The notes below the pieces were generated by a model, which had not been told where the DNA came from, did no database searches, and saw only the letters and a program-made list of their open reading frames with translations. DNA of 64,000 bases from Solobacterium sp. GTDB lineage: Bacteria; Bacillota_I; Bacilli_A; Erysipelotrichales; Erysipelotrichaceae. The position numbers were made by a program, and so were the translations under genes. Location: NCBI GenBank assembly GCA_024693325.1, contig JAILLA010000016.1:27760-91759 (forward strand), written 5' to 3'. Positions 6,877 through 49,954 of this stretch are shown piece after piece. Every line of letters begins with the position of its first letter. Position 1 is the first letter of the stretch.

Positions 6877-8121
6877 ATGGGATTAAACTTTATAGATTTA
6901 TTTGCAGGAGCTGGTGGTCTTTCTGAAGGTTTTGTGTCAGCAGGTTATAATCCTGTAGCACATGTTGAAATGTTGGAAGATGCATGTATGACTCTTAAAA
7001 CAAGGGAATGCTTCCATTATTTGAAGTCTATTGGTAAAGAAGCTTTATATAAAAATTATCTATGCCATGGAATAACACAAGATGAATTATACTCATTAGT
7101 TCCAGACGCTGTTACTGATAAAGTGCTACAACGGACAATGAGTCTAGATACGATGTTTGATCTGTTTAGTGATATTAATCGGTTGATGAAAACATCAAAA
7201 GTTCAGAAGATTGATTTAATCATAGGAGGACCTCCATGCCAAGCATATTCATTGGTTGGAAGATCTAGGAAGGGAGAGACAATAGTAAATGATCCCCGAA
7301 ATTTCTTGTATAAGATTTATCTGGAAGTACTTAACGAGTATAAGCCAAAACTATTTGTTTTTGAAAATGTTCCTGGCCTGCTAACAGCCAATAGAGGTAG
7401 ATATTTTGAAGATATCAAACAAGCCTTCAGGGATGCTGGATATGTTATTGACTATCGTATTGTAAATGCACGTGACTTCGGAGTGTTACAGAACAGAAAA
7501 AGAGTAATCCTCATCGGATGGAGAGAGGATGTACAAGAAGAGTATCCAGTTTTCGAAAAGATTGATTCTCCACATTATGTAAGAGAAATACTAGAAGATC
7601 TTCCACCACTACAAGCAGGTGAAGAGAATAATCGCTATTCAACCGTTTTGATAAATGATTATTTAAAAACAACTGGAATAAGAAAAGAAGATGACATATT
7701 AACTTGGCATGTTTCAAGACCAAATTCAAAACGGGATCGCGAGATTTACAAACTGGTTATTTCAGCATGGGATAATGGTAAACAAAGACTTAAGTATAAT
7801 GATCTTCCAGAAGAGTTATGTACTCATAGGAATCGGAGTTCTTTCCTGGATAGATTTAAGGTTGTTGCAGCTGATTTATCTGCAAGTCAGACAATGACGG
7901 CACATATCTCAAAAGATGGTCACTATTTTATCCATCCGGATATATCACAGGCCAGGTCAATTTCAGTAAGGGAGGCAGCACGTATTCAGTCATTTCCGGA
8001 TGATTACTATTTTGAAGGCTCAAGGACGACGGCCTATATGCAGATAGGCAACGCCGTGCCAGTCCTGATGGCAAAAGGAATTGCTGTAAGTCTTAGGAAA
8101 GCATTGGAGGTTCAGAAATGA
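6877..8121 (+). CDS. DNA (cytosine-5) methyltransferase, DrmMII-like position
   Basis: FIDLFAGAGGLSEGF (motif I), GGPPCQAYS (IV), FENVPG (VI), QNRKRVILIG (VIII), RIQSFPDDY and QIGNAVPV (IX/X). Confidence 0.95.
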   Translation: MGLNFIDLFAGAGGLSEGFVSAGYNPVAHVEMLEDACMTLKTRECFHYLKSIGKEALYKNYLCHGITQDELYSLVPDAVTDKVLQRTMSLDTMFDLFSDINRLMKTSKVQKIDLIIGGPPCQAYSLVGRSRKGETIVNDPRNFLYKIYLEVLNEYKPKLFVFENVPGLLTANRGRYFEDIKQAFRDAGYVIDYRIVNARDFGVLQNRKRVILIGWREDVQEEYPVFEKIDSPHYVREILEDLPPLQAGEENNRYSTVLINDYLKTTGIRKEDDILTWHVSRPNSKRDREIYKLVISAWDNGKQRLKYNDLPEELCTHRNRSSFLDRFKVVAADLSASQTMTAHISKDGHYFIHPDISQARSISVREAARIQSFPDDYYFEGSRTTAYMQIGNAVPVLMAKGIAVSLRKALEVQK

Positions 8122-10169
8122 GTAAAGAATTAACCATCACTGAGTTCTATAAAACAATTAATGAAGAGATCCAGATGGCCAGAGATACAGAAACATTTGG
8201 CTGGGAAGATCAAGACTTTTTCACTGCGGTGATACTTGATTATCTGGAAGAAGTCGGTGAAGTAGAGGATCCTATAATTTGTCCATTCCGGGGATATGGG
8301 TTGCAACTAAATGCTTACAGTATTTCAGAAGATTATGAGAATGTTGAGATTTATGTAAGTATCTATAAACCAGACGACTCAATTCAATCTGTTTCAAGAA
8401 CTGATATAGATGCTGCAATAAAGCGAGCTATTCAATTGTACCGGAAGGCAACAAATGATTTGTTTGAATCATTTGAAAAAGACAGTGACACATATGAATT
8501 TGCAATTTCACTACATAATCACTGTGATGACATCAAAAAGGTGAAGATTATTGCACTGACAAACGGCCTTGTCAAATCAATAGACTTAAAAAACCTTGAT
8601 CTATCTGGAGTTGAAATATCTTTCTCAGTATGGGATATGGATCGACTTTACAGATGTTTCATTTCTGGAAAGATGAGGGAAACAATTGAAATTGACTTTC
8701 TTAAGGAATATAACATTTCAATACCATGTATAGAGAACAAAACATCTGATAAGTACAGTGTATACCTTGCTATTATAAGCGGTGAATTGCTGGCCTCCAT
8801 CTATGAGACCCATGGACCAAGATTGTTGGAAAGGAACGTACGATCATTTCTTCAGGTCAAAGGTGCAGTTAATAAAGGTATACGGGATACTCTACGTGAT
8901 GAACCGGATATGTTCCTTGCATATAATAACGGTATTTCAGTAACTGCTGAGGAAGTTGAAATTAGTAGAGATGAAAATGGTAAACCGTCAATTTGCAGAA
9001 TTCGTGACATGCAGATTGTAAATGGCGGTCAGACAACAGCCTCCATTTATAATGCTTGGAAAGATAAAAAAATCAATGCGGATTTATCTAAAGTTTTTGT
9101 ACAGATGAAATTATCAGTCATAGATAATATAGAAGATATGAATACAATAGTACCGAAAATATCTGCTTTTGCTAACACACAAAATAAGATACAAATGGCA
9201 GATTTCTCTGCTAATGACCCTTATCACCGGAAAATAGAAGAGCTTTCCAGGATTACATGGGCTCCGTCTATCAGTGGTTCTAAACCGATGAACTGGTTTT
9301 ATGAACGCGCTAGGGGTCAGTATGCGGACATGCTTTCAAAGGAAACAACAACTTTGCGCAGAAAAGAGTTCAAGAACACACATCCTCTATTTACAAAAAC
9401 AGATCTTGCGAAATATGAAAATTCCTGGGATCAATTACCATATCAGGTAAGTGAAGGAGCGCAAAAGAATTTCAAGAAATTTACTCTCAAACTGAAGGAT
9501 AGGGGTAATTTTATCCCGGATATTTCATATTATCAGCGTCTAATTGCAAAAGCTATTCTTTTCCGGCGTACTGAAAAATTGGTTCAGCTACAGCAATATG
9601 GTGGATATAGAGCCAATATTGTCACTTACACAATTGCTTACCTTTCCTATGTGACTGGCCAGAGAATTGACCTTGAAAGAATCTGGAAAGAGCAGGCAAC
9701 TACACCAGCTCTGGACGAGAATATTATCAGTATTTCCCGTTTTGTACATGATATTATAACTAACCCTCCAGGGGGTGCAAATGTCAGTGAGTGGTGTAAA
9801 AAAACAAAGTGTTGGGAAACTGTTAGAGATTATAAATATTGCATTACGGATGATCTTGAACAGCAACTGATAAATATGGCAAACCCGAAACAGGTAGTTT
9901 CAAATTCAGACCAGGCATCGAGATCTTCTCTTAATGAGGCGTCGGAAGAGGAAAGACTGCTTATTACCCGTGCCAGGGAGATACCGGCCAAAACATGGTA
10001 CGCCCTTTCCCGATGGGCAAAAGAAACAGATAATTTCCAAGGTTGGCAAAGGAGTATTGTATTCTCTGTGGGGCAGTTAATTGCAAGAGGAAAAACACCG
10101 TCATTCAAACAAGCAAATCAAGCTCTGATTGTATATGATGAAGCAATTAACAAAGGATTCAAATTATAA
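8118..10169 (+). CDS. AIPR (abortive infection phage resistance) family protein
   Basis: Overlaps methyltransferase stop (ATGA). Core RNVRSFLQVKGAVNKGIRDTL...MFLAYNNGISVTAEEV...IVNGGQTTASIY is characteristic of AIPR. Confidence 0.88.
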   Translation: MSKELTITEFYKTINEEIQMARDTETFGWEDQDFFTAVILDYLEEVGEVEDPIICPFRGYGLQLNAYSISEDYENVEIYVSIYKPDDSIQSVSRTDIDAAIKRAIQLYRKATNDLFESFEKDSDTYEFAISLHNHCDDIKKVKIIALTNGLVKSIDLKNLDLSGVEISFSVWDMDRLYRCFISGKMRETIEIDFLKEYNISIPCIENKTSDKYSVYLAIISGELLASIYETHGPRLLERNVRSFLQVKGAVNKGIRDTLRDEPDMFLAYNNGISVTAEEVEISRDENGKPSICRIRDMQIVNGGQTTASIYNAWKDKKINADLSKVFVQMKLSVIDNIEDMNTIVPKISAFANTQNKIQMADFSANDPYHRKIEELSRITWAPSISGSKPMNWFYERARGQYADMLSKETTTLRRKEFKNTHPLFTKTDLAKYENSWDQLPYQVSEGAQKNFKKFTLKLKDRGNFIPDISYYQRLIAKAILFRRTEKLVQLQQYGGYRANIVTYTIAYLSYVTGQRIDLERIWKEQATTPALDENIISISRFVHDIITNPPGGANVSEWCKKTKCWETVRDYKYCITDDLEQQLINMANPKQVVSNSDQASRSSLNEASEEERLLITRAREIPAKTWYALSRWAKETDNFQGWQRSIVFSVGQLIARGKTPSFKQANQALIVYDEAINKGFKL

Positions 10170-10190
10170 TAACTGAAGGAATTGTACATT

Positions 10191-12785
10191 ATGAATTGGA
10201 ACGAATCATTGAAAAGTATTTTAGATCAACATACTCCGATTGATAATGTAACATTGAGTTTTGATAATGTTGAAACAAGAGTATCTCCTATCGTAAAAGC
10301 AAGTTTGGTTATGCTTGCTAAGCTGTCAACAGAAGGAAAAAACAATAATATATTCGTTTTCCCTGAAATTGCGAAAACCGGTTTTGAGTTTGTAATAGCA
10401 AAAACAGTGATGGATATTCTTGCTGGACGAATTGACTCAACATATGATCCTCATTCCTTTAAAAAAGGACAAAAACTGAGATATGAGGACTGCATAGTTG
10501 TGTTTGAAGAAGTGGCTGACCATGATAATGATGGCCTTGAAAGAATCTGGATTTCATTTTCAAATCCACATGCTAGAAGAGGTATACCAATCAAACTAGC
10601 TCCGTTTTTTCAAAAAGTTGATAGTAAAAAAATATCAACAGCAAAAGCATTTAACAAAACTTACAGCGCAAAACATAAAGAGCATGAAGCTAAAATTGAT
10701 GCACTTAATGCAAATTCACTCAAAACACTTAAGGATAACAAGACTCACCTGACAGATTCCATTGTTTATGTAACTAGGGTTCAGAGTACAAGGAACTATC
10801 TTCTGACAGCACTCTTAAATGGGAACAAGTTGTCAGATGTTCTTTATCTTGCTCAAATAGGCAATGATGGGATGCTCAATAATGTTTCATCTGGTCAAAT
10901 GACTGGCAATCCAGCAATCGCAATAGCTAGTGATCTGTACAAAGTGATAAATGCAATGTCAAACGGATTGAAAGTACACAGGATAATATTCGATGCATCA
11001 GTATCAAACAATCTTAATCAACAGCTTGATGCATTTGACCAGCTGATATCGGAAAAGATACCAATAACGTGCATTGCTGATACAGTGAATTCCATGGATA
11101 CCCGCCATCTTAAGGCGCGTAATTTTCTGGAATGGAGATGGAACAAACAGAGTATTACAGAAGACTTGTACGTGAACGAATTAAATGTTCCGGTCAAAAA
11201 ACGAATTATCAATTGTTCCCAACATCAGGTGAATTATCTAAACGTCGAGGACAAATTTATCAGCAATGCGTTAACTCTTCTTTATAGACAGAGGGAACAG
11301 ATACAAGGACAATCATCTAAATTGATGAATGTTTATGACAAACTGTTTTCAATGACAACGAACTTCATGCGTGCAATAGTACCTTTTACTATTACACAAA
11401 AGAGGCATTTTATTGATATTCTTGATGAATGCGAAGAAATAGTTAACGCCGAAAAGCGCTTTATTTCTTCTGAAATGTTTAAAGATCTATTAACAATCTC
11501 TGACTTGTTGAGGGGATTTGTTTCAAACAATCAAGCACTCCAAAAAGTAATTATGCTACAACAATTGTTGAATAGTAACAACTGGTCGCATGTTTGTATA
11601 GTTGTGCATGAATCCCAAGATAAGTTGGCAGCCATTAAATATTGGAATGACTGGAAAATGAGTACATGCATTAAAACGGAGATCACCATTGTTTACACAA
11701 AAGAGTATCAGAATAGTAAATCACTTCTATCAGATATAACCATCATTCCCAGCTGGTTCAGAAATGAAACTGTCAAAAGTATAATTTATCACTATGTTTC
11801 ATCGACCTATTATATGCTGCTTTACAAACAGGAAGAACGATGGAAAACCAAAGCGGTTAGTTTTTGGACAAATGTAACGCAGGATACAGACAATCATGTG
11901 ATTGCGGATACTGTTTTAGGAAAACAGGATAACGGTGTGAAAGAGGTTTTAAATCTTCCTGTATCGAATACAGCTGTTTTAGATGCTCCTGTAGAAGTAG
12001 AAGACGACCTGGAGCAAATGGAAAAGAGATTACTGGAGCGTCGATATAGAAGTTACAGTTCGTCTTCTTCTGATGGTCATACTGTTATCAATGCAATTCC
12101 TGTAAGTTTTGTTGGGGGATTGCTGGCTTTTTACAAAACAGGTCATAAGGTTATTACAGTGACAGATATCATTGAAAGAAAAGCTAAGGAAATGGTACTG
12201 AAAAACGCTGAAGATATATCGATTGGGGAGTTTATTGTTGTTAGGGAATCTGAAAAAGAAATAATACGTGAACTTGCAGACATTATACTCAAAAACGATG
12301 GAAATAATGAACTTCGAAGCTATTCGCAAAAATGGCGTGATTCTCTAAAAGTGGAGTTATTGTTCTCAAGTAATGATGAAATTGTAGAAAAAATATGTGC
12401 TGCTGGCTGTCGTAAAGAGAAAAGTACAATATTAAACTGGATCACTAATGATGAATTGATTTCTCCACAGTCTAAAGAAGATTTAATTTATATTGCCAAA
12501 GCCACAAATGATGATGTACTGCTGGAAAAAGCCGATCTGTATTTTAAGGCTTGTACAGAAGTGAGATCTGCACATAGAAAAGCAGGTCATCTGTTGTCAG
12601 AACGGCTGAGTCGTACTATTCATTTGAGGTTAGATGAGATGAATGAGCTAGATCCTTTCAATGTATGGGATCCAATTGAAGTCAAATTAGAAGATATTGG
12701 AACTGTAAAGATATTGAAAGTAATTGATATCGGCAGTCAAATTCTTGTTGAACAGATCAATACAAACCGTCTATTAAGTGAATAG
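10191..12785 (+). CDS. Large protein in DrmE position of a DISARM-like operon
   Basis: ATG at 10191 with upstream GAAGGA. About 864 aa, no obvious catalytic motif. Assignment rests on size and neighbourhood. Confidence 0.5.
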   Translation: MNWNESLKSILDQHTPIDNVTLSFDNVETRVSPIVKASLVMLAKLSTEGKNNNIFVFPEIAKTGFEFVIAKTVMDILAGRIDSTYDPHSFKKGQKLRYEDCIVVFEEVADHDNDGLERIWISFSNPHARRGIPIKLAPFFQKVDSKKISTAKAFNKTYSAKHKEHEAKIDALNANSLKTLKDNKTHLTDSIVYVTRVQSTRNYLLTALLNGNKLSDVLYLAQIGNDGMLNNVSSGQMTGNPAIAIASDLYKVINAMSNGLKVHRIIFDASVSNNLNQQLDAFDQLISEKIPITCIADTVNSMDTRHLKARNFLEWRWNKQSITEDLYVNELNVPVKKRIINCSQHQVNYLNVEDKFISNALTLLYRQREQIQGQSSKLMNVYDKLFSMTTNFMRAIVPFTITQKRHFIDILDECEEIVNAEKRFISSEMFKDLLTISDLLRGFVSNNQALQKVIMLQQLLNSNNWSHVCIVVHESQDKLAAIKYWNDWKMSTCIKTEITIVYTKEYQNSKSLLSDITIIPSWFRNETVKSIIYHYVSSTYYMLLYKQEERWKTKAVSFWTNVTQDTDNHVIADTVLGKQDNGVKEVLNLPVSNTAVLDAPVEVEDDLEQMEKRLLERRYRSYSSSSSDGHTVINAIPVSFVGGLLAFYKTGHKVITVTDIIERKAKEMVLKNAEDISIGEFIVVRESEKEIIRELADIILKNDGNNELRSYSQKWRDSLKVELLFSSNDEIVEKICAAGCRKEKSTILNWITNDELISPQSKEDLIYIAKATNDDVLLEKADLYFKACTEVRSAHRKAGHLLSERLSRTIHLRLDEMNELDPFNVWDPIEVKLEDIGTVKILKVIDIGSQILVEQINTNRLLSE

Positions 12786-12796
12786 GAGCGAATCAT

Positions 12797-14539
12797 ATGG
12801 CAAAGATGATACCTTCAGTTCTTTCTCCTGAAATCAAAAGTGCTGCAGAAAAACACATTTTTCAATGGTTTAAGGAGGATCCTTCAACCAAGGACTGGAT
12901 AGTCCTTCATTCTCTTGGTATTTCCAATCACAGAACTGTAATCCACGGTGAAACAGACTTCTTTGTCTTGGCTCCGTATATGGGACTATTTGCTTTGGAA
13001 GTCAAAGGAGGTAGGGTCAGTAGAAAGAACGGTATCTGGCAATACACTGACAGATACGGTAATACTACGAAAAAGGCAAGAGGACCATTCGAACAAGCCT
13101 GGGATGGAGTACATAGCATCACAGATGATATTAAAAAGAAGGTGGATAATTCGCATCGGAATCTGGAAAATGTCTTTTACGGAATCGGAGTAATGTTTCC
13201 AGATATTGAATACCAAGCCGTGGGCTGTGATGAAGAACAGTGGCAAGTATTTGATGTTAACGATGGATACCGCGTGGGAGACTATGTCAGGCGCTTGTTT
13301 GATGGGGCACAGAAAAGATGGGAGGAAACATTTCAGAACACTGTATCATTCGACAAGCTGCCGACTGAGAGCGATGTTCGATACATTGCAGATCTCTTAA
13401 GAGGAGATTTTGATAAAGCGGTAGCAATAAGTGCGAAGATCCGGGATTCTGAAGAAGAACTTGTCAGACTGACAGAGCAGCAGTACAGGTGTATTGACCA
13501 GATAAGTGACAATAAACGGAGTCTTATACTCGGAGGTGCTGGTACAGGTAAAACTCTTCTTGCAATTGAAGCTGCGAAAAATGCTGCTGCTGAAGGAAAA
13601 CGAACCGCTATGTTTTGTTTCAATCGGAATCTAGGGAGTTGGATAGAACAATATTTCAAGAAAATGCCTGTCTCAGTTCGACCACAGTATTATGGTACAT
13701 TCCATCAATATATGATGAAATCCATTAAGAACAATAGCAATAAATCTACAGATCACCTAGATGTCTACAGTAGTGAATTCTATCAAAACAAACTGCCGGT
13801 ACTAGCCAAAGAAGCAATACAAGAAATGCGAGATCGATTTGACCTAGTAATAATTGATGAAGCTCAAGATTTGGTGAAACCACAATATATTGATGTGCTT
13901 GATGTGTGTCTGCATGAGGGATTTGCTAGAGGACAATGGATTATGTTTGGTGATTTCTCGCGGCAAGCTATCTATAGCGGCTCAATGGATGGTACAAAAA
14001 TGATTGATCTATTGGAAGAAAAAACGGCTTTCGCAAGATTCAGGTTAACAATCAATTGCAGAAACACCAAACATATTTGTGATGAAATTACAACTATCAC
14101 AGGATTTGAACCACCGAAGGAAATATGGTCAAAAATCGAAGGTATTCCTGTTGAGTATTATGTGTATTCCAGCAGAGAGGAAGAGCAGACGAAATTAAAA
14201 AGCGTTATCTCAATGTTGATAGAAAATCATATTTCTCCCGCAAGGATTACTATACTGTCACCATTAAAGCGTGACTTATCAATTGTAGACACGGTTTCAG
14301 ATTATAAAATTATCAATTATTCACCAACCAATACTCGCAATCTATCGTTCAGTACTATACAGGGATTCAAGGGATTGGAAAATATGGTAATTATTCTGGT
14401 TGATATTGATACAATTTCTGATACAAATCTGATGTATGTTGCCTTAAGCAGAGCGAGGTCAGGATTGTATGTGATTGAATCGAAAAATGCAAGAGAAGAA
14501 TATGTGAAACTTATGATGGGGAGGATAGAAAATGGATAA
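12797..14539 (+). CDS. NERD-domain / UvrD-like superfamily 1 helicase
   Basis: N-terminal NERD-like segment (GETDFFVLAPYMGLFALEVKGG), Walker A GGAGTGKT, DEAQD box, C-terminal VALSRAR. Confidence 0.88.
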   Translation: MAKMIPSVLSPEIKSAAEKHIFQWFKEDPSTKDWIVLHSLGISNHRTVIHGETDFFVLAPYMGLFALEVKGGRVSRKNGIWQYTDRYGNTTKKARGPFEQAWDGVHSITDDIKKKVDNSHRNLENVFYGIGVMFPDIEYQAVGCDEEQWQVFDVNDGYRVGDYVRRLFDGAQKRWEETFQNTVSFDKLPTESDVRYIADLLRGDFDKAVAISAKIRDSEEELVRLTEQQYRCIDQISDNKRSLILGGAGTGKTLLAIEAAKNAAAEGKRTAMFCFNRNLGSWIEQYFKKMPVSVRPQYYGTFHQYMMKSIKNNSNKSTDHLDVYSSEFYQNKLPVLAKEAIQEMRDRFDLVIIDEAQDLVKPQYIDVLDVCLHEGFARGQWIMFGDFSRQAIYSGSMDGTKMIDLLEEKTAFARFRLTINCRNTKHICDEITTITGFEPPKEIWSKIEGIPVEYYVYSSREEEQTKLKSVISMLIENHISPARITILSPLKRDLSIVDTVSDYKIINYSPTNTRNLSFSTIQGFKGLENMVIILVDIDTISDTNLMYVALSRARSGLYVIESKNAREEYVKLMMGRIENG

Positions 14540-17500
14540 TAGAAGAGAACAGATTATAGATATCATCAAAAGGGAATTCATTGGTCCGGATCCTCTTCGT
14601 ATAGCTGGATTAATTCAGGAAAACGGGGAGGAGATACTATCCTCAGACCCCCCAACAATTAGATACGCTGCAGGGATTTTGTTTCCACAGAATGTCAAAG
14701 TAGATCAGGTAGAAAGTGATACTGAGGTAGAAAGTATTGGACTGGATCAGCAATCTAAAGATACCGTGACAGATGAACCTGGAGGTGGAGTTGGGGAATT
14801 CCTTCAAGAGGCAGAAGAACTGATTAATCTTTCCAACGCATACCAACAATCAGCAATCAGCATGACAGTAGCTGTTTGCGAAGGAGATCATATTTTTGTT
14901 AATGTACGTGCTGGGGCATATACAACCGTTAGTGAAAAAGATGCTACTACAGGTAAAGAAAAAAGAAAGTATTACAGATCTCAGATAACTTGGGACAATA
15001 CAGATTTTCCAATTCAAATATCTGAAACCGGGAGAATTGAGCCGCAGATTATTACATGTAACACACAAAAAACTGCTCTGAAATTTCATACGACATTCAG
15101 ATATAAAAAGGATTCTAAACTTGTTTATACATTTACTTTGGAGAATTCCAAGATGAATAAGGCAAGTCGTGTCAAGGATGATGATTGTTATTTCCAAGTA
15201 GAGTTTTCTCTGATTTCTCAACTTGGATTCCAATCGATGCCAAATGACACACGGTTGAACATAAATGATGAAGACTATTTGTCTAATCAGATGCTGTACA
15301 GAAATGTTAAAAAATATGCAGTGGGGCATGGCTGTGCAGCGGAATGGACTGAAATTGAAGGGAAAGTTAATTTGATCAATACGGCTGTTTTTCCTTCATA
15401 TGAGATGAAACCAATCGTTCCAAATGTAATAGACAAAGTTTCTCTGGAAATGTATAGATTGTCTGATGCAGGTAGAAAAGAAGATATTCTCTTGGAATTG
15501 AGAACCTTATGTATGAAATACGAAGAATGGATTATTGATCTGTCGACTCGTGTAAATACTATAGCGGATCACGGTACAGCATTGCGTCATATAGAAAACT
15601 GTCGTTTCTGTTTACGTAGAATGGAAGATGGTATAGACCTACTTGAAAGAGATGATTTGGTTTTACTTGCTTTTCAGCTGATGAACAGGGCAATGCTTTT
15701 GCAACAACTTCATTATGGACTTCCTTTACAAAAGTGGGAATCTGAAAAGGGACAGCTAGTTCTGCAGAATGCTATCAAAGTTTTCCCTAGTATTCATGAT
15801 AAAGAAACCTGGGGAGAGAATAAGAACCGACTGGGAAGATGGAGGCCGTTCCAACTGGCGTTCGTTTTGATGAACTTGAAATCAATGTATGACAGAACTT
15901 GCAATGAAAGGTCTATCGTTGATTTGATTTGGTTCCCAACTGGAGGTGGAAAAACAGAAGCATATCTAGGTTTATCCGCGTACACCATCTTCATCAGAAG
16001 ACTGATGAACAGAGATGATTCTGGAACAACAATTTTGATGAGATATACTCTCAGATTGCTGACATCTCAGCAATATGAAAGAGCATCCTCGCTAATCTGC
16101 GCATGCGAACTGATTCGGCAAGAGATGAAAGATAAACTCGGAGTGGCAAGAATATCGATTGGTCTCTGGGTTGGTAGTGCAACTACACCTAATAGTATGA
16201 CCGATGCAGTCAGAAATTATGAAAAATTGTATAGAGGTGAAACTGCTGAGCACAATCCTTTTATCGTTATGAAGTGCCCATGGTGCGGAGCTGAAATGGG
16301 TTTGGTGCAAAATGGAAAAACAAAAGATACACCAGGATATAAAAAAATAATAAGCAAAGGATCAAAACGACTTGTACTACAGTGTAGAAATAGCCTGAAC
16401 AACTGTGCTTTCTCAAAAACGGATAACACACTTCCTTTGTATATAGTTGATGATGATATTTACAGTAACACACCTACGCTTCTGCTTGGAACGGTCGATA
16501 AATTCGCATCTCTTCCGTACAGACCGGAAGCACAAACAATTTTTGGTATTCATGACGGAAAAAGAGTAACATCACCTGATCTGATCATCCAAGATGAACT
16601 TCATTTGATTTCAGGCCCGTTAGGTTCAATGGTCGGGCACTATGAAACCATGATTTATGAACTCTGCTCATACGAAACCGTTAAAGGAAAGATACAACCT
16701 AAGATAATTGCATCAACTGCAACTATAAGCAGAGCTGCAGAACAATGCAATGCCCTATACGGATGTGGAAAGAATAAGGTCAGACAGTTCCCACCAGCAG
16801 GATTGGATGCCGGTGATTCCTTCTTTGCCGTGGAAGACAAGAAAGCTCCTGGAAGAAAGTATGTTGGTATATTGGCTTCAGGTGCGTCCTCAATGGCAAC
16901 AACAGCAATCAGATTATATGCAACTCTACTTTATGCAGGTAAAGCAATCAAAGTAGGTAAAGAAGCAGATCGAGACCCATACTGGACAAATGTCGGTTAT
17001 TTCAACAGTATCCGTGAACTAGGGCAATTGGAAACCTGGATACCTGCGGATATTAATGAATACCTGCATGTTATTTACAAAAGAAGATATGAAGATAAAG
17101 AAGAAGGGTACATTAAAAATAGAAGATATCTAAATGCATACAAAGAATTGACCAGCCGAATAAGCAGCAATTTGATTCCTGCTACTTTGCAGGAACTAGG
17201 AGAAAGATATCCGTCAAACAACCCGAAAGAGCATCCGCTGGATATCTGTCTAGCAACTAATATGATTTCTGTTGGGGTCGATGTACCAAGATTAGGACTG
17301 ATGACAGTAGACGGACAACCAAAAACTACATCTGAATACATCCAAGCAACAAGTCGTGTCGGGAGAAGAGCTGATGCCCCTGGACTCGTACTTACACTGT
17401 ATAACCCGGGAAAACCGAGGGATAAATCACATTATGAGCAGTTTGTTTCATATCATTCAAGAATCTACTGTAATGTTGAACCAACTAGTGTTACACCATT

Positions 17501-17906
17501 CTCTGCTCCATTGAGAGATCGTGCTCTGCATGCATTGGTAATTGGCATAATACGTCAAGAAGGAGACAAATATGTAAATGCTAATCCTCCTTCAATACCT
17601 GACGAGGAAACAAGAAAAAGGGTAAAGGCAATCATATGTGATAGAGTCGCGAAAATTGATTGTGATGAACTTGAAGACACCATGAGACAGATTGATGATA
17701 TATTTGATAACTGGTCTCTTTGGGAACCTGAAAAATACCACGATTATAAAGCCGGTGATGAGCTTCCGTTAATATTTCCAGCTGGAACTCGTCGTAACGA
17801 GTTGTGGGGCGAATCACGTGGATATCCTACACCGACATCAATGAGAAGTGTTGATGCATCGTGCGAGGCAAAAGTAATAGAAAATGGATATAGTGTGGAG
17901 GATTAA
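14532..17906 (+). CDS. drmA: DrmA-like DISARM helicase
   Basis: Walker A FPTGGGKTEAYLG, motif II QDELHLISGPLG, helicase C NMISVGVDVPRLGLM...SEYIQATSRVGR. Immediately followed by a DUF1998 gene. Confidence 0.82.
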   Translation: MDNRREQIIDIIKREFIGPDPLRIAGLIQENGEEILSSDPPTIRYAAGILFPQNVKVDQVESDTEVESIGLDQQSKDTVTDEPGGGVGEFLQEAEELINLSNAYQQSAISMTVAVCEGDHIFVNVRAGAYTTVSEKDATTGKEKRKYYRSQITWDNTDFPIQISETGRIEPQIITCNTQKTALKFHTTFRYKKDSKLVYTFTLENSKMNKASRVKDDDCYFQVEFSLISQLGFQSMPNDTRLNINDEDYLSNQMLYRNVKKYAVGHGCAAEWTEIEGKVNLINTAVFPSYEMKPIVPNVIDKVSLEMYRLSDAGRKEDILLELRTLCMKYEEWIIDLSTRVNTIADHGTALRHIENCRFCLRRMEDGIDLLERDDLVLLAFQLMNRAMLLQQLHYGLPLQKWESEKGQLVLQNAIKVFPSIHDKETWGENKNRLGRWRPFQLAFVLMNLKSMYDRTCNERSIVDLIWFPTGGGKTEAYLGLSAYTIFIRRLMNRDDSGTTILMRYTLRLLTSQQYERASSLICACELIRQEMKDKLGVARISIGLWVGSATTPNSMTDAVRNYEKLYRGETAEHNPFIVMKCPWCGAEMGLVQNGKTKDTPGYKKIISKGSKRLVLQCRNSLNNCAFSKTDNTLPLYIVDDDIYSNTPTLLLGTVDKFASLPYRPEAQTIFGIHDGKRVTSPDLIIQDELHLISGPLGSMVGHYETMIYELCSYETVKGKIQPKIIASTATISRAAEQCNALYGCGKNKVRQFPPAGLDAGDSFFAVEDKKAPGRKYVGILASGASSMATTAIRLYATLLYAGKAIKVGKEADRDPYWTNVGYFNSIRELGQLETWIPADINEYLHVIYKRRYEDKEEGYIKNRRYLNAYKELTSRISSNLIPATLQELGERYPSNNPKEHPLDICLATNMISVGVDVPRLGLMTVDGQPKTTSEYIQATSRVGRRADAPGLVLTLYNPGKPRDKSHYEQFVSYHSRIYCNVEPTSVTPFSAPLRDRALHALVIGIIRQEGDKYVNANPPSIPDEETRKRVKAIICDRVAKIDCDELEDTMRQIDDIFDNWSLWEPEKYHDYKAGDELPLIFPAGTRRNELWGESRGYPTPTSMRSVDASCEAKVIENGYSVED

Positions 17907-17909
17907 GCA

Positions 17910-19757
17910 ATGGCATATGCAAAAAGGCCTATGCGGAGAACTAGTTTGATCAGTCCGTGGGGTGTCGGTGCAATTGTACCGTTCCCGAATGATGAATCTC
18001 TTATGATTGCAGGATTAGATATGTGGAGATACAGCACCATTGACCCATTTCTGATAAAGGATGACCGTCTTCAGAAGAGGCTTGGTGTCAAAGAATTGCG
18101 GTGGCCGCCAGATTTCAGAGAGCCAAAATCAGATCCTGAAAACTGTAATCTTACAATCCCAGCTGTACGTTTTCCCAGATGGCATTATTGTCCTTTTTGT
18201 GGAGGAATGCATTATGTAGGCCTATATACAAAACAGCCTGTATGCGACGCATATCAGTGGGAAAACGGGAGAAAATGTGATCCAAACAACAAGTACAAGA
18301 AAAAACTGATTCCAGAACGATTTGTAGTGGTTTGTCCGGAAGGACATATTGATGATTTTCCGGTAGCTGAATGGCTTCATTTTGAGACTGGGCATGAATA
18401 CGATCCCAACAAGTGCAGAATCAGGAGGAGCACCGGTGGCACTTCAGCTTCTCTGACTGGTGTGATGTATGAATGTACCTGCGGAGCTAAGAAATCTATA
18501 GCCGGTGCAGTACGGCCGGGTGGACTAGCCAGGATGGGTTATAAATGCAAAGGTAGCAAACCGTGGCTCGGCATTATAGAAGATAATCAGGAACCGTGTA
18601 CGTGTGAGCCAAACGATCTAAAAGTTCTACAAAGGGGTGCCACAAACGTATGGTTTGCGGATACAACAAGCTCCATCAGTATACCTCTGGACAGTGATAA
18701 AGCATCAAGAAAGCTTCTTGCAGCAGTAGACGACTGCTTTGAGTATGTTGCCAGTCACCGTGTTGATGGTGAACTGGACAGAAACCTGATTGATTTCCAA
18801 GCACATAAATATTCTGTTAATCCTGATGAGTTATATCGGGCTATCAAGAACCGAATTGACAACAAGGATCAGCTTCCAAATGATACAGAATCAATAACAG
18901 AAAACCAGTATCGAAGATCAGAATATGATGTCCTTGTGAAAACAAGTGGCAGTGATGCACTGGATTTTTATTGTATTAATCAACCAATAGAACATTATTC
19001 TCAAGTGATTCGAAAGTATTTCAACAGTATATCTTTAGTTAAAAAACTGCGTGAAACCAGAGCGTTTGTCGGTTTTTCCAGACTTGAGCCGAACAGTTCA
19101 AAAACGGTTTTAGAAAAGAAAAAGATGCTTAAACTTGGTAGAGTTGATTGGCTGCCTGCAATAGAGGTCTATGGAGAAGGAATATTCTTTGAGTTTAACA
19201 AAGAAACACTCACCAAATGGGCTGCATTTCCGCCAGTTGTTTCTAGAATTGAAAAGCTAAATGACGCCTATCAAAAATCATTCTTTGCCAAAGATGAACC
19301 AGGAAGCTTACGCCCGGAATTTGTGCTGATCCATACATTTGCACATTTGATTATCAATCAACTGAGTTATGAATGTGGCTATGGAAGTTCATCAATTAGA
19401 GAACGTATTTATTGTGAGAAATGTTCCGACAACTATGATATGTACGGTGTCCTTATTTATACTGCTTCAGGTGACTCCGAAGGTTCACTTGGTGGACTGG
19501 TCAGACAAGGTGAAAGTGGTAGACTGGAAGATACAATCCTCGCAGCCATTCGAAATGCTGAATGGTGCTCCTCCGATCCGATTTGTATTCAATCAACTGG
19601 TCAAGGTCCTGATTCGTGCAATCTGGCAGCATGCCATAACTGTGCGTTGCTTCCAGAAACGTGCTGTGAACTGGGAAACCGGCTTTTAGATCGCGGATGT
19701 GTGGTAGGTATTTTGGAAGATAAATCGATTGGTTTTTTCAGTGAGATAGGGGAATAG
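17910..19757 (+). CDS. drmB: DrmB-like DUF1998 protein
   Basis: Zinc-ribbon cysteines (CPFCGG, CTCGA), DUF1998 motif LIHTFAHLIINQLSYECGYGSSSIRERIYC, C-terminal Cys cluster CNLAACHNCALLPETCCE. Confidence 0.85.
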   Translation: MAYAKRPMRRTSLISPWGVGAIVPFPNDESLMIAGLDMWRYSTIDPFLIKDDRLQKRLGVKELRWPPDFREPKSDPENCNLTIPAVRFPRWHYCPFCGGMHYVGLYTKQPVCDAYQWENGRKCDPNNKYKKKLIPERFVVVCPEGHIDDFPVAEWLHFETGHEYDPNKCRIRRSTGGTSASLTGVMYECTCGAKKSIAGAVRPGGLARMGYKCKGSKPWLGIIEDNQEPCTCEPNDLKVLQRGATNVWFADTTSSISIPLDSDKASRKLLAAVDDCFEYVASHRVDGELDRNLIDFQAHKYSVNPDELYRAIKNRIDNKDQLPNDTESITENQYRRSEYDVLVKTSGSDALDFYCINQPIEHYSQVIRKYFNSISLVKKLRETRAFVGFSRLEPNSSKTVLEKKKMLKLGRVDWLPAIEVYGEGIFFEFNKETLTKWAAFPPVVSRIEKLNDAYQKSFFAKDEPGSLRPEFVLIHTFAHLIINQLSYECGYGSSSIRERIYCEKCSDNYDMYGVLIYTASGDSEGSLGGLVRQGESGRLEDTILAAIRNAEWCSSDPICIQSTGQGPDSCNLAACHNCALLPETCCELGNRLLDRGCVVGILEDKSIGFFSEIGE

Positions 19758-19760
19758 AAT

Positions 19761-20330
19761 ATGTATGTGATTTTATCTCAGAGGATTGACACTGAATCAA
19801 GTTATGAAGATAGTGTTTTTAAGCTATATCATTACCCTTCGAGGTATAAAAATCAGCTACATGTAGGTGATACTTTTATATATTATCAAGGAAATAGATA
19901 TAAGCAGGAACAGAGGTATTACTTTGGTACAGGTACAATTGCAGCCATAAGTACTGAAGATGGGAAAAACTTTTATGCTGAATTGAAAGATTGTATTCGT
20001 TTTCCTAATAATGTTCCGATTTATTACGAAGGTGATGTAAATTATATAGAACAACTTGAATACCAAACAGTAAGAAAGAGCATTAATCCACCATGGCAAA
20101 GTTCAATACGTCCACTGTCCAAAGAAGCATACGATTATATTATTAGCAGGTCTGGTTTGGATGCGATTATTGAAGCACAATCTTCAGTGTTTGAGACGAA
20201 TGAGCTACTTAAAAATGCTGTACGTGAGTATTTCAGAGATAAGAATAGTGAAGCAATTACAAGAATAAGAGAATACTCAACAATGATTGAAAAAGAAATC
20301 AACTGTACAAGAAAAAAAGTTAAGAAATGA
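19761..20330 (+). CDS. Small protein with EVE/PUA-like (modified-base reader type) domain, putative
   Basis: MYVILSQRIDTESSYEDSVFKLYHYPSRYKNQLHVGDTFIYYQGN...YYFGTGTI resembles N-terminal reader domains of HNH/McrBC-like proteins. Confidence 0.5.
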   Translation: MYVILSQRIDTESSYEDSVFKLYHYPSRYKNQLHVGDTFIYYQGNRYKQEQRYYFGTGTIAAISTEDGKNFYAELKDCIRFPNNVPIYYEGDVNYIEQLEYQTVRKSINPPWQSSIRPLSKEAYDYIISRSGLDAIIEAQSSVFETNELLKNAVREYFRDKNSEAITRIREYSTMIEKEINCTRKKVKK

Positions 20331-20664
20331 AAAAAGTTTGATTGGCCTTTTAAACTGTTAGATTTTTATTTATGAGGTACAAATAATTCATATAATATAC
20401 TTCTATATAGTTCATGGTCTACATAAAACAATCAACCATCTGATTTCATGAAGAATAGAATCGCTGATTAGTGTTAAATACAGAAAGAATAGATAACTAT
20501 TGGGAGAATATTGTTATATCAATAGAACGTGCTGTTTTTGAAATTTAGATGACAAAACTGATAATATAAACAGGATTGTATGTTAGCAATAACTATCAAA
20601 GATATATCGTTTGAACGTTATTTAGGAACTATGTTGATTAAGATATAGATGAGGAATCAGATAA

Positions 20665-21078
20665 ATGGATGTTTTGACAAAAGAACAAAGAAGCTATAAC
20701 ATGTCCCGGATAAAAAAAGACAATACGAAACCCGAAGAAATAGTCAGACATTATTTATTTTCTAAAGGGCTGAGATATAGAAAAAATGTTTCTACGCTCC
20801 CGGGCACTCCTGATATTGTCCTAAAAAAACATCATACTGTAATCTTTGTGAATGGTTGCTTCTGGCATAAACATGATAACTGTAAATACTTTGTTTGGCC
20901 AAAAACTAATATTGATTTTTGGAAAAATAAACTAACAAAAAATGCAGAAAGAGATAAACTAACTCGGACTTTGTTAGAGGAAAAAGGTTGGAAAGTGATC
21001 ATTATATGGGAATGTGAATTGAAAAAAGACTTGAGGGAATGTACACTTGATAATCTATATAAAATGATTATTACCTGA
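20665..21078 (+). CDS. vsr: Very short patch repair endonuclease
   Basis: LTKEQRSYNMSRIKKDNTKPE, LPGTPDIVLKKHHTVIFVNGCFWHKHDNCKYF, WKVIIIWECEL are classic Vsr motifs. Confidence 0.95.
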   Translation: MDVLTKEQRSYNMSRIKKDNTKPEEIVRHYLFSKGLRYRKNVSTLPGTPDIVLKKHHTVIFVNGCFWHKHDNCKYFVWPKTNIDFWKNKLTKNAERDKLTRTLLEEKGWKVIIIWECELKKDLRECTLDNLYKMIIT

Positions 21079-21082
21079 TTGG

Positions 21083-21165
21083 TTGATCAGACCAATGACA
21101 CCCATGATCAGATAAATGGTTTGTTTGGTCAGGTATACTGCATCAAACAGATAGATTTGCGTAAT
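21083..21165 (-). pseudogene. Diverged relic of pnuC 3' end
   Basis: Reverse complement translates FDAVYLTKQTIYLIMGVIGLINQ, versus intact PnuC FDAVYLTKRTIYLIMAVIGLANW at ~27350-27420. A 19-bp identical core is shared (21102-21120 = 27368-27386). Confidence 0.85.
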
Positions 21166-21279
21166 ACTAAGCCTGAGGACAATTATTTCAAGCAGGCTTA
21201 CGGATACATAATCCCCTCTAAACCTTGGAGAATTGTCTTCAAGGATTTTTTATCTCGGAAGAAAGGAGGTCGGCGGATT

Positions 21280-22674
21280 ATGGGAAGAGACAAGATCACA
21301 GCGCTTTATGAGAGACTGTCCCGGTATGATGAGCTTCAGGGCGAGTCCAACAGCATCCTGAACCAGAAGAAATATCTGGAAAACTATGCCCGGTCAAAAG
21401 GGCTGACGAATATCCGGCATTTTACCGATGACGGCTATTCCGGCACCAACTTCAACCGTCCCGGATTTACCGCCCTCCTCGAAGAGGTCAAGGCCGGGAA
21501 TGTGTCCGTAATATGCGTGAAGGACATGAGCCGTTTCGGAAGGAATTATCTTCAGGTCGGTTATTACACGGAGATCCTGTTCCCGGACAAAGGGGTCCGG
21601 TTCATAGCGGTCAATAACAATATCGACAGTGATAATCCGGCAGAGAACGAGTTCACGCCCTTCCTGAATATCATGAACGAGTGGTACGCGAAGGATACCA
21701 GCAAGAAGATCAAGGCAGTCTTCCGCAACCGTATGGAACAGGGACTGCGCTGTTCCTGCGCTATTCCCTATGGCTACACAAGGAAGCCGGATGATAAGCA
21801 GACACTGTATGTCGACCCGGAGGCCGCCGGGGTGGTCAGAAGGATCTTCGCGATGGCCGCCCTCGCGGAAAGTGATCCGGAGGCCGCTGAAGTTCTTGAA
21901 AAGAGGAGTGCCTATTATGCCGAGAAGAACCAGATCAGCGCGGAAAGACGAAAGCAAAAGGCGGCCAGGGATTCCGAGTTCGCGGAACACGTCAGGGAGA
22001 AACGGCAGGAATACGCGGAGAATAAGCGCAAAAGGAATCAGAAATTAAAAGAAGCTGCTCAGACAGACCCGGAAGCCGCCGCTGTGCTGGCTGAGCAAAC
22101 GGAAAAGCAAAAGGAATACCGCAAGAGATCTGACGAGAGACAGGCCAAAAGGGCTGAAGAAGATCAGGAATTCGCGGCAGAGCTTGAAGCCCGAAGGAAG
22201 GAATCAACCCGGAAGAACACTGCCCGGAGGAAAGCCTATATGGATGACTTGAAGGAGCGGGCAGAAACAGATCCAGTCGTCGCCGAAGAACTTGCCGCCA
22301 TCCGGGCCTATAACGTGCAGGCTACAACAAAGAGCCGGAACAAGCTGATCGAGGATGTCAGGACTGATCCTGAAGCGGCAAAGAAGCTTGCCGGACAGCG
22401 GGAACGCCGCAACCAGAATGACAGGAACAAACGGCAGGCCCTCATTGCACAGGCTGAAACAGATCCGGAAGCCGCTGCGAGACTGGCCGAGATCAGGGCC
22501 AAGGATGTTCGAAAACAGCAGGAATATCTGGCAAGGCTTCAGGAAAAGGCCAAGGCGGATCCCGATGCCGCCGCCAGATGGGAAGCGCATCTGGAATACG
22601 TTCAAAACTATAATCGCAACTACAAATCAAGGAAGCAGGCGGAGGACGCTGGAAAGGAGCTGGTAGCGATATGA
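21280..22674 (+). CDS. Chimeric serine recombinase: resolvase N-terminus fused to charged DPEAA-repeat tail
   Basis: RBS AAAGGAGG, then MGRDKITALYERLSRYDELQGESNSILNQKKYLE and CVKDMSRFGRNYLQVGYYTE. Recombinase homology ends at VVRRIFAMAA and continues in frame as ALAESDPEAAEVLEKR... repeats. Confidence 0.85.
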   Translation: MGRDKITALYERLSRYDELQGESNSILNQKKYLENYARSKGLTNIRHFTDDGYSGTNFNRPGFTALLEEVKAGNVSVICVKDMSRFGRNYLQVGYYTEILFPDKGVRFIAVNNNIDSDNPAENEFTPFLNIMNEWYAKDTSKKIKAVFRNRMEQGLRCSCAIPYGYTRKPDDKQTLYVDPEAAGVVRRIFAMAALAESDPEAAEVLEKRSAYYAEKNQISAERRKQKAARDSEFAEHVREKRQEYAENKRKRNQKLKEAAQTDPEAAAVLAEQTEKQKEYRKRSDERQAKRAEEDQEFAAELEARRKESTRKNTARRKAYMDDLKERAETDPVVAEELAAIRAYNVQATTKSRNKLIEDVRTDPEAAKKLAGQRERRNQNDRNKRQALIAQAETDPEAAARLAEIRAKDVRKQQEYLARLQEKAKADPDAAARWEAHLEYVQNYNRNYKSRKQAEDAGKELVAI

Positions 22675-22940
22675 AGCTGATACGATTGATCGTGAAGATC
22701 ATTCTTCTTCCGATGGCAGTTGTCCTGACACTGGTCCAGTGGATCGGGATCTTCCTAAACAGCATCTCCGGTATGGTCATGGGGATCCTGTCCTTCCTCT
22801 TCGTCCTGGCCTCCGGGGCGGAGTTCCTGAAGATGATGATCGCCGCATTTGTGATCTTCCTGATCCCGCATATCGGGAACTGGGTAGTCGAGAGGATCGC
22901 CGTGCTCCGTTTGTTGATCGGTGATTTCATCCGGTCATGA
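22671..22940 (+). CDS. CD1845-like small membrane protein of Tn1549/Tn916-type elements
   Basis: MKLIRLIVKIILLPMAVVLTLVQWIGIFLNSISGMVMGILSFLF; overlaps the preceding stop. Confidence 0.65.
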   Translation: MKLIRLIVKIILLPMAVVLTLVQWIGIFLNSISGMVMGILSFLFVLASGAEFLKMMIAAFVIFLIPHIGNWVVERIAVLRLLIGDFIRS

Positions 22941-23047
22941 CCTGCAAAACTGAATATGGATTACATATCTAAGGCCGTCTGTCCGTCATGGAGAGGCGGC
23001 TTTTGATATGGGACAACAATCAATTTTATGAAAGGATGGTACAGACC

Positions 23048-23611
23048 ATGAACAGACTCTTTAACAGCATCACATTCACGGAAACCCAGAAGAACGCCCT
23101 CTTCGCTTTTGGCGAGAAGGACAAGATCGGCACCGGGGCCAACCTGATCATCGCCGCCTGCATGTGTGAGGGCGAATTGCCCAAAGCGATTCTGATGAAC
23201 CTTGCGGATCTGATCGAGAGTGTCGGCATCACGGATGAGGAATTTGAGCAGCTCATCTACCAGATCCGGCTTGAAACGGAAGAAAACATCCTCAGCATGG
23301 AGAAGCACTATCAGGAGATGACCGGGAAGAGATCCGCTGACCGCTCTTGGAGAGATTTCGCCCGGAAGAAGATCCTTGCAACGTTCGGTAACGAGAGCTG
23401 CGGAAACACGGTTCTCCGGCTCAACTATGTCGAGCACGTGACGGTGGATCCGGACCTGAAGCAGATCATCCATGACCTGACCTCGCAGGTCGCCACCATG
23501 AATGTCTTCAAATCGGAGAAGTATCCGGATCTCCTGACCGAGGCCCGGAAGGTAGATGAGCTTTGGAGAATCAAGACGGATGACTTGGGATACTTCATTG
23601 TAAAAGACTGA
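23048..23611 (+). CDS. Mobile-element-associated hypothetical protein
   Basis: GAAAGGATGG upstream; MNRLFNSITFTETQKNALFAFGEKDKIGTGANLIIAACMCEG. GC-rich like the adjacent element genes. Confidence 0.55.
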   Translation: MNRLFNSITFTETQKNALFAFGEKDKIGTGANLIIAACMCEGELPKAILMNLADLIESVGITDEEFEQLIYQIRLETEENILSMEKHYQEMTGKRSADRSWRDFARKKILATFGNESCGNTVLRLNYVEHVTVDPDLKQIIHDLTSQVATMNVFKSEKYPDLLTEARKVDELWRIKTDDLGYFIVKD

Positions 23612-23742
23612 TACGAAGAACTGAACTACGGCAGGCAAGTGTACCGGGGCCGTCAGTCCAATGCGGATTGGCGGCTCCAGCGTGCTATTGGAGAACCAGA
23701 ATGGGAGCCATTAACTTGACATCACGAAAACATGATAATTTA

Positions 23743-23771
23743 TTGAAAAATGAACATGTTTATGATATGCT
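23743..23771 (+). promoter_or_regulatory. Putative sigma-A promoter with palindrome AACATGTT in the spacer
   Basis: TTGAAA - 17 nt - TATGCT, with AACATGTT (23753-23760) between the boxes, directly upstream of the HTH-methyltransferase. Confidence 0.55.
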
Positions 23772-23793
23772 ACTCTCCTGTTAGGAGGCGATT

Positions 23794-24816
23794 ATGACGT
23801 ATAATTACAACAAGCTTTGGAAACTGCTCATTGACAAGGGTATGACCAAAACAGAATTACGTGTGCAAGCCGGAATTAGTACAAATATCCTTGCAAAAAT
23901 GGGGAAAAATGAATCTGTTGCATTGGAGAGCCTGGCCAAAATCTGTGTTGCTCTCAAGTGCACATTGGATGAGGTGGTTGAGATTGTATCTGATGAAGCT
24001 GCTTCTACTTCAATAATTAGCCTATCTGATGAAGCAATACAGAACAGACAGTCGTTTCAGAATAATTATGAACAGCTAGAATTATCTTTTTCCCATAACA
24101 AAAAGAACAGTAATAAACCAAAGGTAATAAGTTTATTCTCTGGAGCCGGAGGGCTTGATATCGGGTTTGAACAAGCTGGATTTTCGATCGCAGTTGCAGT
24201 GGAAATGGATCCTTCCTGTTGCGATACATTAAAGACAAATCGTCCGGACTTACCGATCATTAACGGCAATATCACCGATATCACAGGGACTGAAATTTTA
24301 TCCAAGGCAGGTCTCAAACCATTAGAGGCCGCGCTTGTTATTGGTGGCCCGCCGTGCCAGAGTTTCAGCTTGGCAGGGCTTAGAAAAGGGTTGGAAGATG
24401 ATCGTGGAAAGTTGCTTTTTGAATATGTTCGTGTGGTAAGGGAAACTCTTCCGGTTGGATTCGTACTCGAAAACGTGAAAGGTCTAACCAACTGGGACTC
24501 TGGAAGAGCTTTAAAATTGCTAATAGAAGAATTGTCGAAGCCTATTGAGTTTGAGGGAAAAACATATGTATATACGATTACTCCGCCAAAGGTTCTTAAT
24601 GCAGTAGATTATGGAGTCCCTCAATATAGAGAACGCTTAATTCTTGTTGGGAATAGAAAAGGCTTAACATTTGAGTACCCAAAGCCTTGTGATGAAAAAG
24701 AGCGTAAAACAGTTTGGGATGCAATAGGTGGTCTACCTGCACCAGAACAACCTTCTGAAACTGCATTACGTGTTGCTGGAACAATTAAGGGAAGGAGAGA
24801 GAAATTTGGATTCTAA
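23794..24816 (+). CDS. XRE-type HTH fused to DNA (cytosine-5) methyltransferase, N-terminal portion
   Basis: HTH MTYNYNKLWKLLIDKGMTKTELRVQAGIS..., then SLFSGAGGLDIGFEQAG, GGPPCQSFSLAG, LENVKG, YGVPQYRERLILVG. Motifs IX/X are missing and sit in the next ORF. Confidence 0.85.
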   Translation: MTYNYNKLWKLLIDKGMTKTELRVQAGISTNILAKMGKNESVALESLAKICVALKCTLDEVVEIVSDEAASTSIISLSDEAIQNRQSFQNNYEQLELSFSHNKKNSNKPKVISLFSGAGGLDIGFEQAGFSIAVAVEMDPSCCDTLKTNRPDLPIINGNITDITGTEILSKAGLKPLEAALVIGGPPCQSFSLAGLRKGLEDDRGKLLFEYVRVVRETLPVGFVLENVKGLTNWDSGRALKLLIEELSKPIEFEGKTYVYTITPPKVLNAVDYGVPQYRERLILVGNRKGLTFEYPKPCDEKERKTVWDAIGGLPAPEQPSETALRVAGTIKGRREKFGF

Positions 24817-25213
24817 AATGATACCCAATCATCAGGTGACAGCCCATTCTCCATCTACGCTCGAGAAAATCAAAAAAGTGCCAATTGGAAAGAAGCTCTC
24901 TGATATTGAAAAAACATTTGGTTCAACTTATAGACGACTCGATCCTAATAAGCCGTCACCTACTGTTACACGAAGTGGTTATAGGGATTTTATTCATCCC
25001 TATGAAGACAGAATGCTTACTGTTAGAGAACTTGCCTGCTTACAGACATTTCCTCTTGATTGGGAGATAAAAGGAGTAAGGCTTGATTCTTACAGTTCTA
25101 AGAGACAAACTACTATGACACAGTTTGGTCAAGTCGGAAATGCTGTTCCGCCCATGCTGGCGAAAGCTATAGCTGATTCGATTATGACGCAATGGTTTTC
25201 AGAGGAGGAATAG
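24728..25213 (+). CDS. C5 methyltransferase C-terminal portion (frameshifted or separately translated subunit; possible TTG start near 24804)
   Basis: SYRRLDPNKPSPTVTRSGYRDFIHP-type segment, RELACLQTFP (IX), QVGNAVPPMLA (X), in a different frame from 23794..24816. Confidence 0.8.
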   Translation: MVYLHQNNLLKLHYVLLEQLREGERNLDSKMIPNHQVTAHSPSTLEKIKKVPIGKKLSDIEKTFGSTYRRLDPNKPSPTVTRSGYRDFIHPYEDRMLTVRELACLQTFPLDWEIKGVRLDSYSSKRQTTMTQFGQVGNAVPPMLAKAIADSIMTQWFSEEE

Positions 25214-25216
25214 TAA

Positions 25217-26263: not shown

Positions 26264-26269
26264 GCATTA

Positions 26270-27043: not shown

Positions 27044-27066
27044 TATATGATAAGCAAACTAAAGAC

Positions 27067-27098
27067 TCTCAACAGTGAAAAAGTTGAGGGCTTTTGGT
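27067..27098 (+). terminator. Putative terminator after restriction module
   Basis: CTCTCAAC-loop-GTTGAGGGC followed by TTTT. Confidence 0.5.
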
Positions 27099-27305
27099 TT
27101 GCCCTTTGAGCAGAATCGGCCGCGCGGCGATCCTGTGAAAACCGAATATGACGAAAGCCAAGGCCGCCGCCCTGGCTGAGTCAGATGAGAGGAAGCCGTT
27201 GATGGTTTCGCTCCACCGCTCTCTTGCGGGTGGCAGCGAAAATTTTAGCGGTTGGATTGTCTGTTATTGTACATCAAGCTGATTTCTATCTTTTCTTATT
27301 TGTGA

Positions 27306-35782: not shown

Positions 35783-35809
35783 AATTAATTATTTGAAGAG
35801 GGGCCATTT

Positions 35810-49937: not shown

Positions 49938-49954
49938 GATTCCGGAGGATGAAT

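Follow-up and report, generated by a model that had tools for sequence, protein, structure and literature searches.

A recurrent DISARM variant in Solobacterium in which a NERD-helicase protein may take the place of DrmC

How DISARM systems destroy DNA is unsettled. In a survey of YprA-family systems (PMC12458937), the PLD protein DrmC is the typical nuclease of DISARM and the NERD domain is described in TALON systems only; the authors of the DrmAB structure (PMC9142583) call DNA destruction by DISARM a mystery and suggest that PLD nucleases are recruited from outside. The question takes a concrete form in an eight-gene locus of Solobacterium sp. (GCA_024693325.1), located at positions 6877-21078 of the window, the 64,000-nucleotide stretch of contig JAILLA010000016.1 analysed here. 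A preliminary description of this DNA had recognised an extended DISARM locus with no visible DrmC, and had left the effector nuclease open between an AIPR protein and a NERD-domain helicase. The current work shows that the locus is a real, recurrent DISARM variant and not a new category of system. On balance, it is probably a class 2-like variant in which DrmC has been replaced by a NERD domain fused to a superfamily 1 (SF1) helicase, and which has also gained an AIPR derived from MZA-type systems and a stand-alone EVE-like reader.

The proteins of the locus were compared with profiles from Pfam, NCBIfam, PADLOC, PDB and PHROG, and all eight open reading frames, each on the plus strand, were confirmed at their earlier coordinates. 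DrmA (14532-17906; 1124 amino acids, a short form of this YprA-family superfamily 2 helicase) matched PADLOC DrmA at 3.1e-232, and its only PDB match was 7s9v, itself a DrmA (1.4e-261 by profile, 1.2e-136 by single sequence). DrmB (17910-19757; 615 amino acids, with an MZB/DUF1998-type C-terminus) reached 454 bits with NF038324 (DrmB_fam; cutoff 240) and matched PF09369 MZB. The identification of these two proteins as DrmA and DrmB was thus borne out. They adjoin at a spacing of 3 nucleotides, and the operon also contains a DrmMII-type C5-cytosine DNA methyltransferase (6877-8121; 414 amino acids; PADLOC DrmMII 1.1e-170, PF00145 2e-66), which is 51-53% identical to the methyltransferase of the DrmC-bearing loci L033/L064. 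The DrmE-family protein (10182-12785; 867 amino acids) scored 353.8 bits with NF038316 (DrmE_fam; cutoff 80) and 31.9 bits with PF24957 DrmE_C (cutoff 27); its TTG start at 10182 is doubtful, and an ATG lies three codons inside at 10191. With all four components matched by profile search, the extended DISARM locus of the preliminary description stands. DrmA scored 948 bits with NF038325, whose cutoff is 950, and DrmE only 35 bits with the DISARM DrmE equivalog model, whose cutoff is 250, so the locus is a diverged member of DISARM. An interpretation of DrmE as a degenerate SF1 helicase was rejected, since comparing its profile with those of NERD and the other SF1 partners gave probabilities of 0.1-1.9%. 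No match was found for DrmE in plasmids or for DrmA in phages.

The arrangement recurs elsewhere. A neighbourhood survey found AIPR and NERD together again in two homologous loci at 36-75% identity, an outcome in favour of the preliminary description. The first, on an IMG/VR contig (L061), has the order methyltransferase-AIPR-DrmE-NERD-DrmA-DrmB, with identities to the window of 63, 75, 40, 62, 66 and 70%, and carries a McrBC-like pair (AAA_5; DUF2357 with PD-(D/E)XK) where the window has a protein of 189 amino acids, P189. The second, L062, belongs to a different genus of the same family and has the order AIPR-DrmE-NERD-DrmA-DrmB-P189 (62, 36, 47, 58, 64 and 58%), its upstream side being cut by the contig end. 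A fragment with DrmE-NERD-DrmA, cut at both ends, was found in a metagenome-assembled genome of the host's class (L024/L037; Mollicutes in the public record), and L063 has the order Vsr-methyltransferase-355-amino-acid protein-DrmE-DrmA-DrmB-NERD.

The DrmC and PLD models were run on the whole genome, and the window and the rest of its contig contained neither a DrmC nor a PLD domain, in agreement with the earlier account. The only PLD proteins of the genome (511, 531 and 713 amino acids) lie on other contigs, and their lengths suit cardiolipin synthases and polyphosphate kinase. Since the host assembly is about 92% complete, the absence holds for the locus and less strictly for a distant DrmC.

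Directly before DrmA lies the gene of a 580-amino-acid protein (12797-14539) in which a NERD nuclease domain (PF08378, 8e-9) is fused to an SF1 helicase of the UvrD/PcrA-like type. This helicase half matched SF1 helicase models and, in PDB profile searches, UvrD, PcrA, HelD and GajB. The catalytic residues of a PD-(D/E)XK nuclease are present: E52, D54, E68 and K70 of the nuclease, like K252, D354, E355, R422 and R552 of the helicase, are invariant among ten divergent NERD proteins (24-62% identical to the window protein) that represent four phyla and viral contigs. The best PADLOC match was the NERD helicase associated with DRT systems (RTasNERD-Hel, 2.5e-48). This helicase and C3a187 NERD+UvrD share the NERD-SF1 architecture, but no reverse transcriptase is found among the genes of the window operon.

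In the plasmid survey, NERD homologues were found in 14 records, and DrmA/DrmB adjoin in 10 of them: Rhodococcus opacus B4, Azospirillum ramasamyi, five Rhizobium, Deinococcus gobiensis, D. psychrotolerans (where the adjacency runs across the origin of the record) and Shinella. Because just 85 of 72,556 records contain DrmA, a chance overlap with NERD is excluded (hypergeometric P ~3e-27, a value inflated by related plasmids). At least four bacterial phyla, among them Actinomycetota, Pseudomonadota and Deinococcota, have NERD-SF1 genes next to DISARM genes. When genome contigs were scanned with an alignment of two NERD sequences, the patterns chosen were poor and only 3 loci resulted.

Whether NERD-SF1 can occupy the position of DrmC may be seen in the DrmA tree, which comprises 40 proteins (9 with DrmC, 13 with NERD, and 18 carrying neither label). 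In one DrmA clade, the slot after DrmB is occupied by NERD in L040, L041, L043 and L069, with the order UvrD-DrmA-DrmB-NERD, which is also that of the Shinella locus L127. Inside this clade, L070 has the order UvrD-DrmA-DrmB-DrmC, and its DrmC is a PLD protein of 240 amino acids in the place of NERD. The exchange is the most direct sign of NERD and DrmC substituting for each other. NERD and DrmC were together in no surveyed locus. A clean split of NERD and DrmC loci on one branch of the tree was considered and withdrawn in that strict form, since the PLD DrmC of L070 falls within the NERD clade.

Other arrangements of the same genes were also observed. In L036 (9055-16292), from a Ruminococcaceae metagenome-assembled genome, a stand-alone NERD-SF1 with 44% identity lies beside genes named by eye as a WYL-type regulator and a dynamin-like GTPase; this neighbourhood is perhaps a separate defence system. 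In L040 (13270-15671; Azospirillum), DrmA-DrmB-NERD is followed by a gene for a DarT-family single-stranded DNA ADP-ribosyltransferase. Photobacterium plasmids and a viral contig (L048, L051 and L078) contain another minimal DrmAB arrangement, in which a short SF1 helicase (458-507 amino acids) and then a protein of about 480-540 amino acids come after DrmA-DrmB.

The AIPR protein (8118-10169; 683 amino acids; PF10592 2.9e-101, with AIPR_N) is MzaE-like, scoring 443 bits with NF041935 MzaE, under its cutoff of 1050. Seven other AIPR genes from genomes of the same order, with 35-42% identity, are all located in MORC-Z1-PD-(D/E)XK-AIPR operons, most of which adjoin a C5-cytosine methyltransferase. 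The nearest plasmid and viral relatives lie in operons of the same kind, and 9 other AIPR loci have MZA partner genes. In the AIPR tree, the three proteins from DISARM loci group as a single clade (100/99) within the MZA AIPRs (support 95/94 and 100/100). A single capture from an MZA-type system is the simplest reading of this tree. No MORC/MutL ATPase, Z1 or PD-(D/E)XK gene is found in the window operon, in which AIPR lies between DrmMII and DrmE. MZA systems (MORC/MutL, Z1, PD-(D/E)XK, AIPR and a methyltransferase) and the window operon both carry a C5-cytosine methyltransferase, but that of the window is of the DISARM type.

P189 (19761-20330) has no match in Pfam, NCBIfam or PADLOC, and is kept after DrmB in L062. 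HNH endonucleases and a NOV_C protein align with it over their N-terminal halves, and phrog_8048 (HNH endonuclease) covers its residues 12-132 at 1.8e-6. The HNH half of its relatives matches VcaM4I and TagI in PDB, which are sensor-HNH enzymes for modified cytosine (PMC7897488; PMC6212794). These relatives resemble the EVE-HNH modification-dependent endonucleases in having a VcaM4I-like HNH domain with an N-terminal sensor-like domain, whereas P189 lacks the HNH domain and is encoded on its own. On a low-confidence model (pLDDT 54.5), Foldseek ranked DrmA and EVE proteins among the best matches of P189 (E 0.01-0.1, probability 0.89-0.98). An EVE-like domain is located at the N-terminus of class 1 DrmA (Bell and colleagues, PMC12458937), and P189 was considered as a sequence relative of long DrmA N-termini; the profile comparison gave nothing, so the structural match to DrmA stays weak. 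No match came from viral contigs scanned with the P189 pair. P189, which corresponds to the sensor half of an HNH endonuclease without the nuclease and has a weak EVE/PUA-like fold, is a probable stand-alone reader of modified bases. The small reader-like protein noticed earlier thereby gains moderate support.

Among comparable known systems, the locus shares DrmMII, a DrmE-family protein, DrmA and DrmB with DISARM class 2 (DrmMII, DrmA, DrmB, DrmC and DrmE), but it lacks DrmC, has AIPR, NERD-SF1 and P189 added, and its DrmE matches at the family level only. Class 1 and class 1-like systems (DrmD, DrmA, DrmB and DrmC, some with DrmMII) have the DrmAB core in common with it; L033/L064 carry the same type of DrmMII, and Vsr is an accessory in the DrmMII/DrmC loci L034, L072, L076 and L080. 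In contrast to these systems, the window locus has no DrmC, its DrmA falls in a different clade of the tree, and no gene for the SNF2-like helicase DrmD or for DrmMI was found among its eight genes. In TALON and ARMADA (PMC12458937), too, a YprA-family helicase is paired with another enzyme, a NERD nuclease in TALON and an SF1 GajB-like helicase in ARMADA II, but the YprA-family helicases there are ARMADA-like, with fused C-terminal domains, whereas the window DrmA is of the DISARM type; none of the eight genes matched the TPR-CSD or TBP genes of TALON. The literature search, in which preprints and subscription papers may be missed, found no paper joining DISARM with AIPR or NERD.

From these homologies, a course of action may be proposed. 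DrmMII would mark host DNA with 5-methylcytosine, and DrmAB would bind the unmethylated ends of incoming DNA and be activated to translocate, as in Serratia, where DrmAB is activated on binding unmethylated DNA with 5' overhangs (PMC9142583). NERD-SF1 would then unwind and degrade the DNA exposed by DrmAB, the job assigned to DrmC elsewhere; this role is suggested by the slot replacement, the recurrence and the intact catalytic residues. AIPR may provide a second, possibly abortive, response, or may sense the status of DrmAB or the methyltransferase. P189 may sense modified cytosine and so help to tell self DNA or modified phage DNA apart, and Vsr would repair T:G mismatches left by deaminated 5-methylcytosine.

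Several observations weigh against this proposal, in which defence activity is predicted from the genes. In the window, NERD precedes DrmA and does not follow DrmB as in the exchange clade. Class 2 systems with DrmC, of the kind known from Bacillus, are missing from the surveyed sample, so the split between DrmC and NERD may be less clean than it appears. Many DrmC-less DrmAB loci have no NERD either, often with another SF1 helicase beside DrmA/DrmB and sometimes with none, suggesting that a nuclease partner of DrmAB may be optional. The fold of P189 depends on a low-confidence model, and that of AIPR (pLDDT 56.7) gave no Foldseek match below E 0.27 and no recognised nuclease or toxin fold. 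In 4 of the 14 plasmid records (Sphingomonas, Paracoccus, Thermomicrobium and Selenomonas) NERD occurs without DISARM, and the stand-alone NERD of L036 is nested among DISARM NERDs in the tree. Such genes, together with the PADLOC match to the DRT-associated helicase, the loci with DrmE-DrmA-DrmB and neither NERD nor DrmC (L022/L023/L067), and the finding that DrmC is dispensable in tested DISARM systems and often missing (PMC9142583), would fit a system in which DrmAB acts without any nuclease: DrmAB, DrmMII and DrmE would be complete, blocking phage DNA by binding and translocation, and NERD-SF1 and AIPR would be independent genes of a defence island. This explanation is unlikely, though deserving of consideration. 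Against it stand the overlapping or near-zero spacing, an order kept at 36-75% identity, the alternation of NERD with DrmC in a single slot, and the placement of NERD in several lineages, where it is not random but immediately precedes DrmA or follows DrmB. Still less can be said for a decayed or silent island kept by chance in a draft assembly. Compared with its left flank the locus is rich in AT, and it adjoins a serine recombinase, but all frames and catalytic motifs are intact, and diverged homologues retain both the order and the open frames; such an island is very improbable.

If instead AIPR were the effector, sensing by DrmAB would trigger an abortive response and NERD-SF1 would be a helper in DNA processing. 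AIPR is the best conserved operon protein relative to L061 (75%), its name refers to abortive infection, its PHROG match is an Abi-like family, and it sits with a C5-cytosine methyltransferase in MZA systems too. However, it accompanies DISARM in one clade of three loci only, whereas NERD recurs widely, and its fold offers no recognisable nuclease or toxin. An AIPR effector is therefore rather improbable, below even the independent-gene explanation. Of the two candidates left by the preliminary description, NERD is thus favoured, being recurrent, catalytically intact and found in the DrmC slot of one clade; AIPR is limited to one small clade of MZA origin. A wider extension of the NERD replacement reading, offered tentatively, is that DISARM-type DrmAB motors form a common core to which different DNA-degrading modules can be joined: PLD proteins (DrmC) in one branch and SF1 helicases in the other, NERD-SF1 being the helicase type that brings its own nuclease. 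The window clade would add the MZA AIPR as another arm, giving a two-tier defence of direct degradation and a fallback response.

An operon-encoded NERD-SF1 that has intact active sites and occurs beside DrmAB in at least four phyla offers a concrete and testable candidate for the way DISARM destroys DNA. The capture of AIPR ties together two defence systems with cytosine methyltransferases, and may be a way to learn the role of AIPR. Such DISARM systems are probably undercounted, because the window DrmA lies just under and DrmE well under the equivalog cutoffs, and plasmid helicases adjoining NERD are mostly annotated just as helicase-related proteins.

The earlier account had suggested one transcriptional unit for the locus, and this was retained in part. 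The spacings from the first gene to the eighth are -4, 12, 11, -8, 3, 3 and 334 nucleotides, a Shine-Dalgarno-like sequence precedes most starts, and homologous loci are similarly tight, making a single unit of genes 1-7 (6877-20330) plausible. Promoter- and terminator-like sites were no more frequent in the locus than in shuffled sequence; the seven-gene unit thus derives from spacing and conserved order. The eighth gene, Vsr (20665-21078; 137 amino acids; TIGR00632 141 bits, cutoff 98), is an accessory outside the conserved unit and is probably transcribed separately: it follows the 334-nucleotide gap, and no Vsr lies beside L061. The L062 contig ends soon after P189, with no Vsr seen there. 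The Vsr family repairs T:G mismatches arising from deaminated 5-methylcytosine, so that its place next to DISARM loci of the 5-methylcytosine type is fitting.

Outside the locus, the segment at 21079-27413 contains a serine recombinase of 531 amino acids, then a C5-cytosine methyltransferase with a Cro-type helix-turn-helix in two overlapping frames (23794-24816 and 24728-25213), an XcyI-like endonuclease and a DpnII/MboI-like endonuclease. It is bracketed by a 65-nucleotide direct repeat of 85% identity (21083-21147 and 27349-27413), the right copy lying inside a pnuC-like gene, and looks like a separate inserted restriction-modification element. A probable second defence cluster at 33914-42747 comprises a Schlafen-group-3 helicase, an HNH_4 protein and a McrB-like AAA_5 ATPase. 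Two very large open frames, of 2177 and at least 2440 amino acids, occupy 49949-64000, the latter running off the window.

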